Assembly (NCBI GenBank): GCA_028752905.1
Contig: JAQNBH010000015.1
Span: forward strand, 32,323,529-32,387,528
DNA length: 64,000 nucleotides
Direction: 5' to 3'
From: Cladorhizidae sp. MBARI D1340-BT2
Taxonomy: Eukaryota; Porifera; Demospongiae; Poecilosclerida; Cladorhizidae
Of the stretch, positions 50,239-55,060 are shown one piece after another. Position 1 is the first letter of the stretch. Every line of letters starts with the position of its first letter. The notes under the pieces were generated by a model, which was given only the letters and a program-made list of their open reading frames with translations, was not told the DNA's origin and ran no database searches. The position numbers and the translations under genes were made by a program.

Positions 50239-50530
50239 ATGGCTGCCATCCACGGATCCATCTCAGAGTTCTACCATGAAAAGGAGAACTGCACCTCGTA
50301 CATCGAGAAGCTGCATCATTATTTTGTTGCAAACGATGTCGTAACTGAATAGAAGAAGTGAGCCATCCTTCTATCGGCATGTGGAGCGGCAACTTTCAAG
50401 CTAGGTAGTGGATAGCACTGAATTGCCAGTTATGCTCAGCTAGTGCAGGTTACAAATGACCACTATGATCCTATTCCATCTTGCATCGTGCAACATTTCA
50501 AATTTAATAGTCATATGAGAGCATCAGGAG
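50239..50530 (+). pseudogene. Gypsy-7 gag, N-terminal part
   Basis: The ATG frame reads MAAIHGSISEFYHEKENCTS, YIEKLHHYFVANDVV, then stops and continues ILLSACGAATFKLG and, shifted, VTNDHYDPIPSCIVQHFKFN. This is the capsid pattern (coordinates of two helices and HYDPxPSxIVQxxxFN) of gypsy Gag proteins. It is interrupted at AGGAG by the golgin-carrying element. Confidence 0.8.
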
Positions 50531-51081
50531 TGTAAGCGTCCCGCTCCCTACACTCCAGCTGCTTTAGCTTGGCAATGTAGAGGAACACTTTGATGCCTAG
50601 TCCAAATTAGAATCACACTATTCTAATTTACCACTAGACCAACCCAGCCTACAGTATTCCTGTAGCTACAATTTGAGAGCGAGTTAAATAGCTTTAATTA
50701 CAAACAAGGCACAAATGAGGTGCGCCGCCTTTTAATTGAACAACAATGCAACTACTCTCAGTTCTACAAAAGGCCTAATCACACATAAATCTATCAAAGT
50801 TCTTCTCTTTCTCACTCGTCTCTCTCTCTCTTCACGTCATCCTTCGTCAGACGTGTCCACAATCTCTCCCAAAATGACCATGTTTGGTATTCTGGTATTC
50901 TGGAGTGGCCTTCCGGCATGAGTCTCTGACCAATCAGCATCCTTCTTGTCAGGTGACTTGTCTGAGCCATTTGGCAACCTGTGTGGTTCATCAACGTTCG
51001 AGACACTTCCGCTGGCCTGTAGATCTGACGACCCGTGTGGTTCTCTCTCAGTCAGGGTCGAGTCTGTGGAGATCCCTGACA
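50531..51081 (-). repeat. Gypsy-6 3' LTR
   Basis: Same sequence as the 5' LTR with a tandem GGTATTCTGG copy near 50886-50905. The second ORF of the element reads about 80 codons into this LTR before its stop near 50837. Confidence 0.95.
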
Positions 51082-52432
51082 TTCCCCCAACCTTAGTTAG
51101 AGACCCCTGGTCTCTAGACAACCCATCCGCATTAGCGTTGGACTTGCCTTGGATGGTGTCTTCCAGGAACTTAGCCTCGTGTGGGTTGAGAAGGAGCAGC
51201 TCCTCAATGATGGGCACTAGAGCCTTCTTCTCTTCCCCTTCGTTGTGCAAGAACTTGAGGATGACGTTTTTAATGTATTCCATATTTGACACGCCCTTTT
51301 CTCTCTCACGATTTCTCTCCCATCTTCTGATCTCTTCCTTGAGGACCTTGGCCTGGTCGGCCAGCCTGAGGGAGTTTGCTTCGCTCTCCCGTAACAACTC
51401 CGTCAGATGCTTCAATTTCTTCGCCGCCACCTTCAGCTGCCACTGAGAGTTGACAAGGAGCTCGCTGCTAGTCTGGCGAGTCTTCTCGTGAATGGCAGTA
51501 GTAGTGGGGCTCCCTAGCTCTTCCTCTTCCATACTCAGCAACTGGTTGAAGTTAATGCTGGAATCCGGGCCAGGGAGCATGCCTATGCTCTCCAACTGCG
51601 CCTGTTCCATCCCTTCTCCCGAGGAGCGTTGCTCGCAGGGGGGCCTGATGTCGTCCACGACATTCGTGGGCCTTCTTGCAAACGGTGCTACAGTCCTTTC
51701 CTTCGCTGAGCCTGTGGTGCTGGTGCTGTGGGCCCCAACGAGGACACGGCTGTCCACCTCTTGCTGCAGCCTGCTGAAGTCACTCTGCAACACCTCCAGC
51801 TCTGTCTTGACACCCGTCACAACCTTGTTGTGCTCCTCTTGCAGCTGGTGCAACTGGATCTTAAACGCTGCTGTCACTTCCTCAGTCTCGTGCCGAAGAT
51901 GCACAATAAGCTCACCCTGCTCCTGGCTCTGGAGGGCATGCTGCGCTGCCTCATGCCTCAGGGTCTGTTCCAGCCCTTGCTTCTTCTTCTCCAACTGCCC
52001 CTGCAGCACCGCCATGGTGTCCTGAAGCTCCATCTCGCTCGCCTCTGCCTCACCTCCATCAGCAACCGGGTAGAGAGCAGACATGATGGGCCCGTCTCGT
52101 TCCTGTTGTAGGCGCTCCCGTTCCTCAAGTGCGTCCTGCTCCAGTTGCTGAGCACGGGTGACCACCATGCCTGACTCGGTCGCGATGGAAGTAGGTGGGG
52201 TGTTCAGCTCGTCGTAGCTCGGTTCGCTGTCCAGAGCCTTCTTCAAATAGTTCCGGAAGTGAGGTATATCCCTTCCCATCAGCATATCCTCGGTGATATG
52301 TTTCGACACTCCTACCGCAATGGTTGTGGTCTTCCCTTCAACTTCGAGGGTCACACTTTGGAAAGTAAATCTTCCTTTCTGAAGCAGTATTGTACGGTAT
52401 ATTCCACCCCAAATAATCTTCTTTGTCAACAC
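50837..52432 (-). CDS. Protease-golgin (GRIP domain)-RNase H tail fusion, 531 codons open
   Basis: Residues 1-60 are the second half of the element's protease, ending GRDIPHF. To about 113 the linker resembles Gypsy-5 (VVTRAQQLEQ against YATTRAQAER). About 115-430 (52090-51143) are host-like: Glu/Gln/Leu-rich coiled coils (SEMELQDTMAVLQGQLEKKK; ELEVLQSDFSRLQQEVDSRV), a Ser-rich linker, a second coil (LADQAKVLKEEIRRWERNRE) and a GRIP domain (SNMEYIKNVILKFLHNEGEE; LVPIIEELLLLNP) at about 381-427 with its conserved Tyr. GRIP domains bind Arl1/Arl-family GTPases and place golgins on the trans-Golgi. The pattern most resembles GCC2/GCC185. There are no introns or stops. From 431 the sequence is NANADGLSRDQG, the RNase H tail, then the purine tract and LTR. 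A natural host locus is excluded by the LTRs and target duplication. Confidence 0.88.
   Translation of the reverse strand: MLTKKIIWGGIYRTILLQKGRFTFQSVTLEVEGKTTTIAVGVSKHITEDMLMGRDIPHFRNYLKKALDSEPSYDELNTPPTSIATESGMVVTRAQQLEQDALEERERLQQERDGPIMSALYPVADGGEAEASEMELQDTMAVLQGQLEKKKQGLEQTLRHEAAQHALQSQEQGELIVHLRHETEEVTAAFKIQLHQLQEEHNKVVTGVKTELEVLQSDFSRLQQEVDSRVLVGAHSTSTTGSAKERTVAPFARRPTNVVDDIRPPCEQRSSGEGMEQAQLESIGMLPGPDSSINFNQLLSMEEEELGSPTTTAIHEKTRQTSSELLVNSQWQLKVAAKKLKHLTELLRESEANSLRLADQAKVLKEEIRRWERNREREKGVSNMEYIKNVILKFLHNEGEEKKALVPIIEELLLLNPHEAKFLEDTIQGKSNANADGLSRDQGSLTKVGGMSGISTDSTLTEREPHGSSDLQASGSVSNVDEPHRLPNGSDKSPDKKDADWSETHAGRPLQNTRIPNMVILGEIVDTSDEG
51143..52090 (-). other. Captured host golgin segment (GCC2-like), intronless
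   Basis: This is the insert part of the fusion ORF, about 316 codons. It is GC-richer than the surrounding DNA and has host-protein character (coiled coil plus GRIP) unrelated to Pol. Both junctions are in frame. The GRIP domain is nearly complete, but the short C-terminal tail that follows GRIP in golgins is replaced by the RNase H tail. Absence of introns indicates capture through RNA. The parent gene is not in this window. Confidence 0.85.
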
Positions 52433-53528
52433 AGCTGGGGTGCACGAGGGTCTTAGTGCATCCAGTGTCTAGTAAGGCTTTGATGACCTTGCCGTTGATC
52501 TTGACCGTTTTTGTCCAGTCGGGCATGTGGTGTTGTCGTGGTACGACTTGAAGGCTGCACTTGGCATGCTCTACCTTCACCTTGCAATCTCTTTGGTAGT
52601 GACCTTTCCTACCACATCTAAAGCATTCCACTGATCCTAAGTCTTTGGGATAGGGAGGAGGTCCATCCCGGCTCCGCTGTTGCTCGTTCTTCTTGGGCTC
52701 TGCTCTTTCGAAACGACTCGGGTTTCTCGTCACAGGGTAAGGTTCTTTCTTTACGTAGCGGTCTGTTCGTGTCTTTTGGTTTCCTAGGTATCGGATGACC
52801 GCTTCCGTCAGATCCTCATAACTCTGGCAGTCCAAGTTTCTCATAGGGGTTTCCAACCAACCTGGAAGTTTCATGAGAACCATCTCCATCAAGACTGCTT
52901 CTCTGTCCGTCTTTCTGGTGGAGTCCAACCACTGGTTGAAATTCTGCCTATAATCCCTCAACCATTGGTCTGGATTAGTAGAGTTGAACGTCTGGTCAAA
53001 CACTTTTCGCCTATGGGTCTCTGTCGAGATCTGGTACGTTGAAAGTAACACTTTCTTGACTGTGGCGTAGTCAGCTTGTTGTTCTGCTGGAAGTGCTGCG
53101 ACAACTAGCAGTCCTGCCCCAGACAACGATCCTCTCAATCTGATGGTCCATTGAGGTTGAGGCCATCCTGCTATGTCTGCTGTGGCCTCAAATGTATCCA
53201 GATAGGCAGACATGTCATCTGTGTCCTCATTGAACTTATGGAGAGTAAGGTGAGGTGGTGGTGCTGCTGCTGCTGCTGCTGGAGGTGGTCTCTGGTCGCG
53301 CATAGCTTCTATCCACCTTCTCTGTTGATCATTAGCGAAACGTCTCTCTTCAGCACGTTGCTCTTCATCCCTTTTAGCTTTTTCTTGCTCCAGCTCAATC
53401 CAATGATCCATGAACTTGTCGAAGCGACCAAGGGGTCGTGGAGTGTCTTCCTCCTCTTGATAATCCTCCTTGAGGACGTTTCCTGTTCGTGGTGGTCGCT
53501 CATAACCTGATCGTAGAGCCATCTTCAA
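52338..53528 (-). CDS. Gypsy-6 Gag-protease, 396 codons open
   Basis: Starts at an ATG near 53528 (MKMALRSGYERPPRTGNVLK). Residues about 35-70 are a charged helix (FDKFMDHWIELEQEKAKRDE), followed by poly-Ala/Pro and a Gag capsid-like core (LTLHKFNEDTDDMSAYLDTF; LRGSLSGAGLLVVAALP; YQISTETHRRKVFDQTF; WLDSTRKTDREAVLMEMVLM). A CCHC knuckle CFRCGRKGHYQRDC lies at about residues 305-318 and the retropepsin active site ALLDTGCTKTLVHP near 352. The frame ends inside the protease. The protein continues in the +1 frame around 52390-52350, which could be a programmed shift or a one-base mutation. Gag would bind RNA and assemble particles. Closely related to the Gypsy-5 Gag. Confidence 0.9.
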   Translation of the reverse strand: MKMALRSGYERPPRTGNVLKEDYQEEEDTPRPLGRFDKFMDHWIELEQEKAKRDEEQRAEERRFANDQQRRWIEAMRDQRPPPAAAAAAPPPHLTLHKFNEDTDDMSAYLDTFEATADIAGWPQPQWTIRLRGSLSGAGLLVVAALPAEQQADYATVKKVLLSTYQISTETHRRKVFDQTFNSTNPDQWLRDYRQNFNQWLDSTRKTDREAVLMEMVLMKLPGWLETPMRNLDCQSYEDLTEAVIRYLGNQKTRTDRYVKKEPYPVTRNPSRFERAEPKKNEQQRSRDGPPPYPKDLGSVECFRCGRKGHYQRDCKVKVEHAKCSLQVVPRQHHMPDWTKTVKINGKVIKALLDTGCTKTLVHPSCVDKEDYLGWNIPYNTASERKIYFPKCDPRS

Positions 53529-53706
53529 TCAACGATAACAACCACACCAAAAAAATTGTAGTACAACTCAAAAACTACGTCAGGGTTGTTTTGCACGTTC
53601 CAAGGTTCTTACCTGAACGGTATCCCTAACTTAGCTAATAGTTTACAACTCAGAAACAATACAACTGCACTTAGCTACAATAGCTATGCCTGGGATTCTC
53701 ACAACT

Positions 53707-53726
53707 GATCCCACCGCTGCCACCAA
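53707..53726 (-). promoter_or_regulatory. Primer binding site complementary to tRNA-Leu
   Basis: The plus strand reads GATCCCACCGCTGCCACCAA, matching the 3' end of animal tRNA-Leu (ATCCCACCGCTGCCA plus CCA). It abuts the 5' LTR. Confidence 0.9.
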
Positions 53727-54271
53727 TGTAAGCGTCCCGCTCCCTACACTCCAGCTGCTTTAGCTTGGCAATGTAGAGGAACACTTTGATGCCTAGTCCA
53801 AATTAGAATCACGCTATTCTAATTTACCACTAGACCAACCCAGCCTACAGTATTCCTGTAGCTACAATTTGAGAGCGAGTTAAATAGCTTTAATTACAAA
53901 CAAGGCACAAATGAGGTGCGCCACCTTTTAATTGAACAACAATGCAACTACTCTCAGTTCTACAAAAGTCCTAATCACACATAAATCTATCAAAGTTCTT
54001 CTCTTTCTCACTTGGCTCTCTCTCTCTCTTCACGTCATCCTTCGTCAGACGTGTCCGCAATCTCTCCCAAAATGACCATGTTTGGTATTCTGGAGTGGCC
54101 TTCCGGCATGAGTCTCTGACCAATCAGCATCCTTCTCATCAGGTGACTTGTCTGAGCCATTTGGCAACCTGTGTGGTTCATCAACGTTCGAGACACTTCC
54201 GCTGGCCTGCAGATCTGACGACCCGTGTGGTTCTCTCTCAGTCAGGGTCGAGTCTGTGGAGATCCCTGACA
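53727..54271 (-). repeat. Gypsy-6 5' LTR
   Basis: On the plus strand begins TGTAAGCGTCCCGCTCC and ends GAGATCCCTGACA. Compared with the other LTR it lacks a 10-bp GGTATTCTGG duplication. Confidence 0.95.
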
Positions 54272-54276
54272 AGGAG

Positions 54277-55060
54277 GGTCTCTATCGAAATATGTAGCAG
54301 CATTGCATTGCTTTAGCGGAGCACTGTCAGTTCAAGGACACTGAAGGAAATGCTGCTCGATCATTGGTTTGCAGAGTCAACCACGATGGAATACAGCTGC
54401 AGTTGTTGGCTGAAAAAGGACTTACCTTTGAAAAGGCATTGGAGTTTGCCTTGGCTATTAAGTCAGCAGAAAACAACATTCAAACAATCAGGACAGCCAG
54501 TTTGAGGCAACCTTCACCCATGGAGGTGCATGAGTTCGATATTCCACAGAGGGTCATGAAAGGAAAGACAAACCTATACACACCTCAAAACAAACCTGTA
54601 TGTTATAGGTGTGGAGGAGAACATAGGCTCCAGATTGCAAATTCCGAAATGCTAAATGTCACAACTACAATAAAATTGGACATATTACAAGAGCATGCAG
54701 GAAAAAGCCTACACAGCGGGACATAAAGGCAAGCAAATGAAAGAGCATCATTATTTGGAGAATGAAGTCAAAATACAAGGACACTCCGAAGACAGTGAAC
54801 AGTCTTATTCTGTATTTGCCATGGATAGTAGCAAACACAAGGCATTCATGGTAGATGTTTACATTAAACCAAGTGGCAGTAGAAATGGAATTTAAAACTG
54901 GTGCTGCCCCCACTCTCATCATGAAGGAAACGTATGAGAGGATATGGAAGAGGCCTCATATCCAAAAGCTCCAAGATACTGACGCCACAGGGGAGAAAGT
55001 GTCCTTGCTTGGATCAGCATTTGTCACTGTGGAGTTGGGTGAGAAAAGGTGGTGTTAAAT
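54277..55060 (+). pseudogene. Gypsy-7 gag C-terminal part and protease
   Basis: Continues the Gag pattern: CRVNHDGIQLQLLAEKGLTF, EKALEFALAIKSAENN, then the first half of a knuckle (CYRCGGEH) followed by a frame change. The protease region reads EMEFKTGAAPTLIMKETYER, where the usual DTGA is KTGA, so the catalytic Asp is lost. LGSAFVTVELG is the end of the domain. Confidence 0.75.

Follow-up and report, generated by a model that had tools for sequence, protein, structure and literature searches.

Evidence for a golgin segment captured by a family of non-autonomous LTR retrotransposons in a cladorhizid sponge

The genome of the sponge Cladorhizidae sp. MBARI D1340-BT2 appears to contain a family of non-autonomous long terminal repeat (LTR) retrotransposons that carry a captured segment of a host golgin gene. 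One copy lies in the stretch of DNA analyzed here (the window, 64,000 nucleotides of contig JAQNBH010000015.1, assembly GCA_028752905.1; contig C6 in what follows). There it forms a complete LTR element of 3,741 bp on the minus strand, running from position 54271 to position 50531. We give this reading a probability of about 93%. The first-pass annotation of the window had proposed that a retrotransposon captured a GRIP-domain golgin in place of its reverse transcriptase and integrase, and was then retrotransposed. That observation is confirmed by the present analysis, and the overall interpretation built on it is supported, with the amendments given below.

The spliced golgin segment

The host-derived insert is 879 nt long (51149-52027, minus strand), or 293 codons, rather than the 316 codons first proposed. 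It is in frame with the element at both ends. Two domains were recognized in it by Pfam, both over the curated cut-offs: a Rab-binding domain (PF16704, E=2.4e-11; 51296-51439) followed by a GRIP domain (PF01465, E=1.3e-10; 51170-51289, residues 338-377 of the translation), so that the earlier assignment to GRIP stands. The N-terminal stretch of the insert reads as a probable coiled coil. A Rab-binding domain followed by a GRIP domain is the arrangement of the GCC2/GCC185 golgins, and the GCC2 chain 3bbp_D, which the Rab-binding part resembles, is the only sequence in the PDB that matches the insert at E<=1 (E=3.1e-8). Unlike the golgin itself, the element holds the C-terminal part alone, placed behind Gag and protease and lacking the final five codons and the stop. 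The best protein match comes from another sponge, Ephydatia muelleri, with 42% identity across 76% of the query length. None of the 17 matches listed, from the best 8000 candidates scored, combines retroelement domains with a GRIP domain.

The segment derives from a GCC2-like gene that lies 0.66 Mb away from the window copy on this contig and occurs once in the search made with the golgin part. Nucleotides 52-879 of the insert match its exons at C6 positions 31688753-31688905, 31694757-31694966, 31699249-31699296, 31699384-31699625, 31703978-31704047 and 31711359-31711463, with 94.5-100% DNA identity per exon; the homology starts within the first of these, and the first 51 nt of the insert come from an exon farther upstream. 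AG precedes the last five matched exons and GT follows the first five, as in GT-AG introns. The host frame ends five codons past the right junction (GLRYI and a stop). Thus, exon by exon, the insert is spliced, while its donor sits elsewhere and retains its introns; a host gene in place at the window is rejected on this ground.

A longer form of the insert was found in L046, which is among the most diverged copies. Here, ten consecutive donor exons are joined without introns, as in a transduced host mRNA, though L046 also has out-of-frame gaps of 11 and 2 nt, as well as an interruption some 690 nt long. In the other copies, the first of these ten exons is joined to the fifth, and 432 nt, a multiple of three, are missing with respect to the spliced form. 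The scar of this deletion lies at 51965-51983 in the window copy. Long tandem arrays, whose repeats recur about every 30-32 and 54 bases, lie between golgin exons of the donor gene (L047, 485-1896 and 4160-6606).

The Pfam GRIP model, run over the genome, gave 24 matches, 20 of them above the cut-off. Seventeen of the 20 are copies of the chimera; the exons of the donor gene fall under the cut-off. The other three matches (C7:864692, C12:15650091 and C13:5763768) are perhaps other golgin genes.

The element around the segment and its relatives

The features expected of an LTR retrotransposon surround this insert. A 5' LTR of 545 bp (53727-54271) and a 3' LTR of 551 bp (50531-51081) bound the element; both begin with TGTCAG and finish with CTTACA, having the usual TG...CA ends, and they differ by 8 mismatches in 543 aligned sites and by 10 gap columns. 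The 5-bp target-site duplication AGGAG stands on either side (50526-50530 and 54272-54276). A primer binding site (TGGTGGCAGCGGTGGGAT..., 53705-53725, minus strand) lies just inside the 5' LTR, and a polypurine tract (51082-51094, minus strand) adjoins the 3' LTR. All four of these features had been reported by the first-pass annotation. The primer is putatively tRNA-Leu; a scan of the window with ARAGORN gave no tRNA gene.

The gag gene begins at 53522 on the minus strand. Gag, with a CCHC zinc knuckle (above the Pfam cut-off, E=2e-05), and the N-terminal part of the protease occupy 52341-53522; a second open reading frame (52028-52468) holds the C-terminal part of the protease and a linker (...VVTRAQ...) and continues into the insert. 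Because the frame shifts within the protease, no single polyprotein is encoded by the window copy. Pfam matches to the protease lie below the cut-offs in its open piece. The insert stands where reverse transcriptase and integrase would be, and the element is therefore non-autonomous. The loss extends beyond these two enzymes, which were the ones first said to be replaced, to nearly all of RNase H. Only a C-terminal remnant of RNase H (GKSNANADGLSR..., 51082-51148) precedes the 3' LTR.

What the element may have looked like before the capture is suggested by L048, an autonomous-type relative on C16. Its LTRs are 96% identical to the 5' LTR of the window copy and show no mismatch within their own pair, and its target duplication is AGCAT. 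Its open pieces hold, in order, zinc knuckle, protease, the H2C2 domain of integrase, rve, SH3 and reverse transcriptase (RVT_1), with RNase H in the next piece after one stop. The chimera corresponds to L048 positions 1-2236 (97% identity), then the insert, then L048 4940-5543, and the RNase H remnant agrees with L048 in frame and almost fully in sequence. Eleven loci, L048 (found as L021) among them, matched the protease tail only (L019-L024 and L026-L030); integrase matches, some of them partial, were present in 11 of 11.

Integrase lies upstream of reverse transcriptase in L048, an order reported for the Gmr1 clade of Ty3/gypsy elements (PMC8220671). L048 may accordingly be called Gmr1-like, a class assigned here from the order protease, integrase, reverse transcriptase, RNase H. 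The available text of that source mentions no captured host gene in Gmr1-like elements, unlike the chimera described here.

The assembly (857 Mb in 325 contigs) was searched with the golgin part, and all 22 matches were scored; 19 rows represent 17 copies of the chimera, and 3 are exons of one host gene. The 17 copies correspond to 12 independent insertions on nine contigs, where five C6 copies with common flanks and a common target duplication were counted as one insertion, and two C10 copies likewise. Eleven of the 12 have a 5-bp target duplication of their own. Read on the element strand, this is CTCCT for the window copy and ATAGA, GTGAG, CTACC, GTCTC, ACCAT, CTCTC, CTGGC, GAGAC, CCTCT and GTAGG for the others; the twelfth insertion, L046, has an incomplete 5' LTR. 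The proposal that the chimera was retrotransposed after the capture is thus borne out.

It might be imagined that the chimera is an artefact of assembly, or that a host gene has been mistaken for an insert. With 17 copies on nine contigs, distinct target duplications, and a host gene with introns at a separate site, this is extremely improbable, and nothing turned up in its favor; the assembly chimera is rejected on the evidence of the separate duplications, judged from the assembly rather than from long reads.

Mismatches between the full LTRs of a copy range from 0/547 to 15/548, and this range shows that the insertions are spread over time and reach near the present. The inserts differ from the host gene by 2.3-4.6%, and the most diverged LTR pairs by about 2.7%. 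The capture is therefore probably not much older than the earliest insertions still visible.

Two further observations concern the surroundings of the window copy. An LTR at C6:32428260-32428804, about 50 kb away and outside the window, is 99% identical to the 5' LTR of the window element; it may be a solo LTR, since no partner is present among the best 40 of 172 LTR candidates. The window element itself seems to have been inserted into a gag-like frame of an unrelated retroelement (50300-50525 and 54277-54726); no Pfam family was found in 54298-54723.

Junctions, route of capture and a second capture

The joints between element and insert suggest how the capture was made. At the left junction, GCGAGATGGAG in the autonomous-type element meets GGGAGATGGAG in the host, with nine bases in common at the crossover; in the window copy these are GAGATGGAG (52028-52036, minus strand), present in both L048 and the host exon. 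At the right junction, the host reads CAA|GGTTTAAG and the element AGT|GGCAAG, with two bases (GG) in common. Microhomologies of 9 nt and 2 nt fit a template switch by reverse transcriptase onto a spliced mRNA. LTR-mediated retroposition in metazoans was reportedly described by Tan et al. in 2016. PMC5408686, citing other work, sets out how templates are switched within particles where the RNA of an element and a cellular mRNA share microsimilarities.

The steps were probably as follows. At the 2-nt homology, a reverse transcriptase of an element with the Gmr1-like order would have left its own RNA for a spliced mRNA of the GCC2-like gene packaged along with it. It would then have copied the golgin mRNA toward its 5' end and switched back at the 9-nt homology. 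The product retains the LTRs, primer binding site, polypurine tract, Gag and protease; integrase, reverse transcriptase and RNase H have given way to the C-terminus of the golgin, with its Rab-binding and GRIP domains, joined in frame. Afterwards, an in-frame deletion would have removed the 432 nt from the captured segment, autonomous relatives would have amplified the chimera in trans, and recombination would later have set the cassette behind the Gag of another family. The sequences themselves show the structure, the donor gene, its spliced origin, the junctions, the repeated insertion and the existence of autonomous-type relatives; we infer the co-packaging, the direction and order of the switches, and the mobilization in trans.

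The classical model for retroviral oncogenes offers another route, in which a provirus next to or within the donor gene is transcribed through into that gene and the transcript is then spliced. The donor gene and the window copy do lie on one contig, 0.66 Mb apart. Both junctions, however, fall inside exons and inside pol, and show microhomology. In addition, comparing the LTR, gag-protease and pol of L048 with the 39.9 kb of donor sequence that was read (the 5' part of the gene lies outside this stretch) gave nothing at E<=1e-3, and a provirus in the donor gene is rejected for these 39.9 kb. Read-through is thus very unlikely.

Two copies, L043 and L044, carry the cassette in a different setting. 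Their Gag, protease, linker and second half of the LTR are different, while the right junction, the tail and the first ~315 bases of the LTR are those of the main chimera family (family A). The golgin part starts later in them, with small in-frame losses, and behind this second Gag it lies in an open frame of 937 codons. Apparently, the cassette was moved by recombination onto the backbone of another element family, leaving a hybrid LTR. An independent capture for these two copies was rejected, given the right junction and 3' part that they share with family A.

A sister family holds another coiled coil between the protease linker and RNase H. Its members are L050 (C1:6.586 Mb) and L056 and L058 (C10:18.697 and 18.709 Mb). 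The left flanks of the last two agree over 200 identical bases and the right flanks differ at 1 of 500, so these two are one insertion. A further copy on C14 (8.454 Mb), with a protease tail at 8454296-8454580 and an insert at 8453593-8454166, is known from its coordinates alone. The better of two protein matches of the sister insert is P0021 (52%, E=7.3e-32), which has at its end a zinc finger of the autophagy-receptor type (PF18112, E=1.3e-10).

At C16:12431925-12433247 (L059), a frame of 440 codons shares 71% identity with P0021 across 433 residues and has the same terminal zinc finger. The sister insert resembles this frame closely, with 91 and 98% identity in two stretches for L056 and 97.6% for L050. 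The frame is likely the donor exon, part of a TAX1BP1/CALCOCO-like gene. The golgin gene was rejected as the source of the sister insert, since 39.9 kb of it gave no match and the donor was then located on C16. The left junction of L050 has GGAGGAG, common to the host exon and to the linker of L056. The donor part lies within one exon, and hence says nothing of splicing; in L056 and L058 the frame breaks after the start of the insert. The uptake of two different host genes by sister families, at corresponding positions, points to capture as a recurring process.

Selection, function and known captures

Does the captured segment serve the element, or is it simply carried along? Changes were counted against the host sequence, with double-hit codons scored in the background of the copy that carries them; changes that every copy has in common take in those on the host branch as well. 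Several results weigh against the reading given above. Golgin changes found in at least two of the 12 insertions number 24 replacement, 15 silent and no stop, an omega-like ratio of 0.61 that does not differ significantly from neutrality (P=0.097). In gag-protease (ten insertions against L048), shared changes number 16 replacement to 20 silent (P=0.0003), a significant constraint such as the golgin part does not show. The Gag-protease-golgin-tail frame is broken in 9 of the 12 insertions. The tree of gag and that of the insert are in conflict, both being weakly supported. Finally, one in-frame stop separates reverse transcriptase from RNase H in L048, and therefore no intact helper was seen. 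The suggestion that an autonomous relative mobilized the chimera in trans has indirect support from the LTRs of L048, ~96% identical to those of the window copy and without mismatch in their own pair, but L048 carries this stop.

Other counts belong beside these. A simpler count of changes in the golgin segment gives 25 to 14; with singletons included, there are 73 replacement, 43 silent and 3 stop changes (omega-like 0.65, one-sided P=0.018). In gag-protease, the ratio is 0.33 for shared changes, 0.19 for those common to all copies, and 0.68 for singletons (67 to 37). Golgin and gag-protease do not differ significantly (P=0.17), nor does the coil differ from the Rab-binding and GRIP part (Fisher P=0.84 over all changes and 0.51 over the shared ones). 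By these counts gag-protease is constrained in the replicating lineage; they do not establish constraint for the golgin segment. The ratios of 0.61-0.65 are weak evidence for it, because singletons, expected to be mostly neutral, give 0.68 in gag-protease.

The frame gives a hint of its own. All eight placed events are in frame: in family A the left junction, the right junction, the 432-nt deletion and the junction to the other Gag, and in the sister family the left junction of L056, its net 108-nt internal loss, its right junction and the left junction of L050. The chance of this is (1/3)^8, about 0.00015. Because the eight were chosen afterwards, from copies that spread, they only hint that the frame was retained; L045, L046 and the window copy also have smaller gaps that are out of frame, which were counted as decay. 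The first-pass annotation had the segment fused in frame at both ends. This holds for the two joints; it fails within the protease of the window copy, and the whole frame is unbroken in 3 of the 12 insertions (891, 892 and 937 codons, stop to stop).

The golgin segment may be a passenger, sitting without a role where pol was lost, while the family spreads by its Gag and protease, packaging signals and LTRs with borrowed reverse transcriptase and integrase. We put the odds of this at even. The near-neutral shared changes in the insert agree with it, as do the broken frames and a singleton ratio about equal in insert and gag-protease, where shared changes fall to half that value (0.33 against 0.68). 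The slight silent excess over all changes does not, nor do the absence of stops among 39 shared or common changes, the retention of NMEY in the GRIP core by 12 of 12 insertions, and eight events in frame where one in three would be expected if the frame were irrelevant.

Alternatively, the golgin tail might serve the element. We propose that some copies may make a Gag-protease-GRIP polyprotein that could bind GTPases of the Golgi. Multimers of Gag that bear Rab-binding and GRIP domains could then collect on the trans-Golgi through Arl1/Rab6-type GTPases, altering where particles assemble or travel. In favor of this, both targeting domains are retained, the host stop is omitted, the frame is open in 3 of the 12 insertions and also behind the second Gag, and the sister family has a different coiled-coil adaptor at the corresponding place. 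Against this stand the lack of significant constraint in shared changes, the equal treatment of the coil and the Rab-binding and GRIP part, and a fold search. The predicted model of the latter part in the window copy has one long helix and two short ones (mean predicted local distance difference test score 80.6, predicted template modelling score 0.45), and Foldseek returned 31 PDB matches to it, none at E<=0.001. A role in Golgi targeting is conceivable but doubtful.

Capture of host genes by LTR elements is, of course, already known, and the golgin chimera is a variant of it. The portions available of the open-licence PMC literature revealed no LTR element recognized as carrying a golgin or a TAX1BP1-like gene; the nearest cases there are Bs1 and the crocodilian endogenous retroviruses. 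Bs1 of maize (PMC13317346, PMC7264820), an LTR retroelement, has transduced parts of three genes of its host, and resembles the chimera in holding host-gene pieces inside an LTR element. It differs in being from a plant and in having pieces of ATPase, xylan endohydrolase and glucanase genes, whereas the chimera is from an animal, with Gmr1-like order and membrane-targeting domains.

Endogenous retroviruses of crocodilians captured the mRNAs of KIT-ligand and nectin3 (PMC4299795), and are likewise multi-copy animal LTR elements with captured host mRNA. There, no domain was lost when KIT-ligand was acquired, and nectin3 stands in place of env; in the chimera, the host part is joined to Gag and protease and takes the place of integrase, reverse transcriptase and RNase H. 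LTR-mediated retroposition, as described in PMC5408686, shares the template switching at microsimilarities proposed for the chimera; the chimera, by comparison, gave rise to a family of 12 insertions.

The evidence that an LTR element has transduced a host gene often consists of isolated remnants. Here, unlike Bs1, one genome holds the donor, a ten-exon form, an amplified short form with the deletion, an autonomous-type relative and a recombinant, so that the steps can be read directly. Both captures give in-frame fusions of Gag with an adaptor, and this makes the usefulness of a captured domain to a retroelement a testable matter. It might even be that a Gmr1-like clade repeatedly exchanges its replicase for coiled-coil adaptors of trafficking and autophagy (GCC2 and a TAX1BP1/CALCOCO-like protein), kept in frame to oligomerize Gag or to steer it to Golgi or autophagic membranes. 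We regard this as unlikely on the present sequences. If it were true, repeated adaptor swapping would define a modular class of parasites of LTR elements, built of Gag plus a targeting domain.

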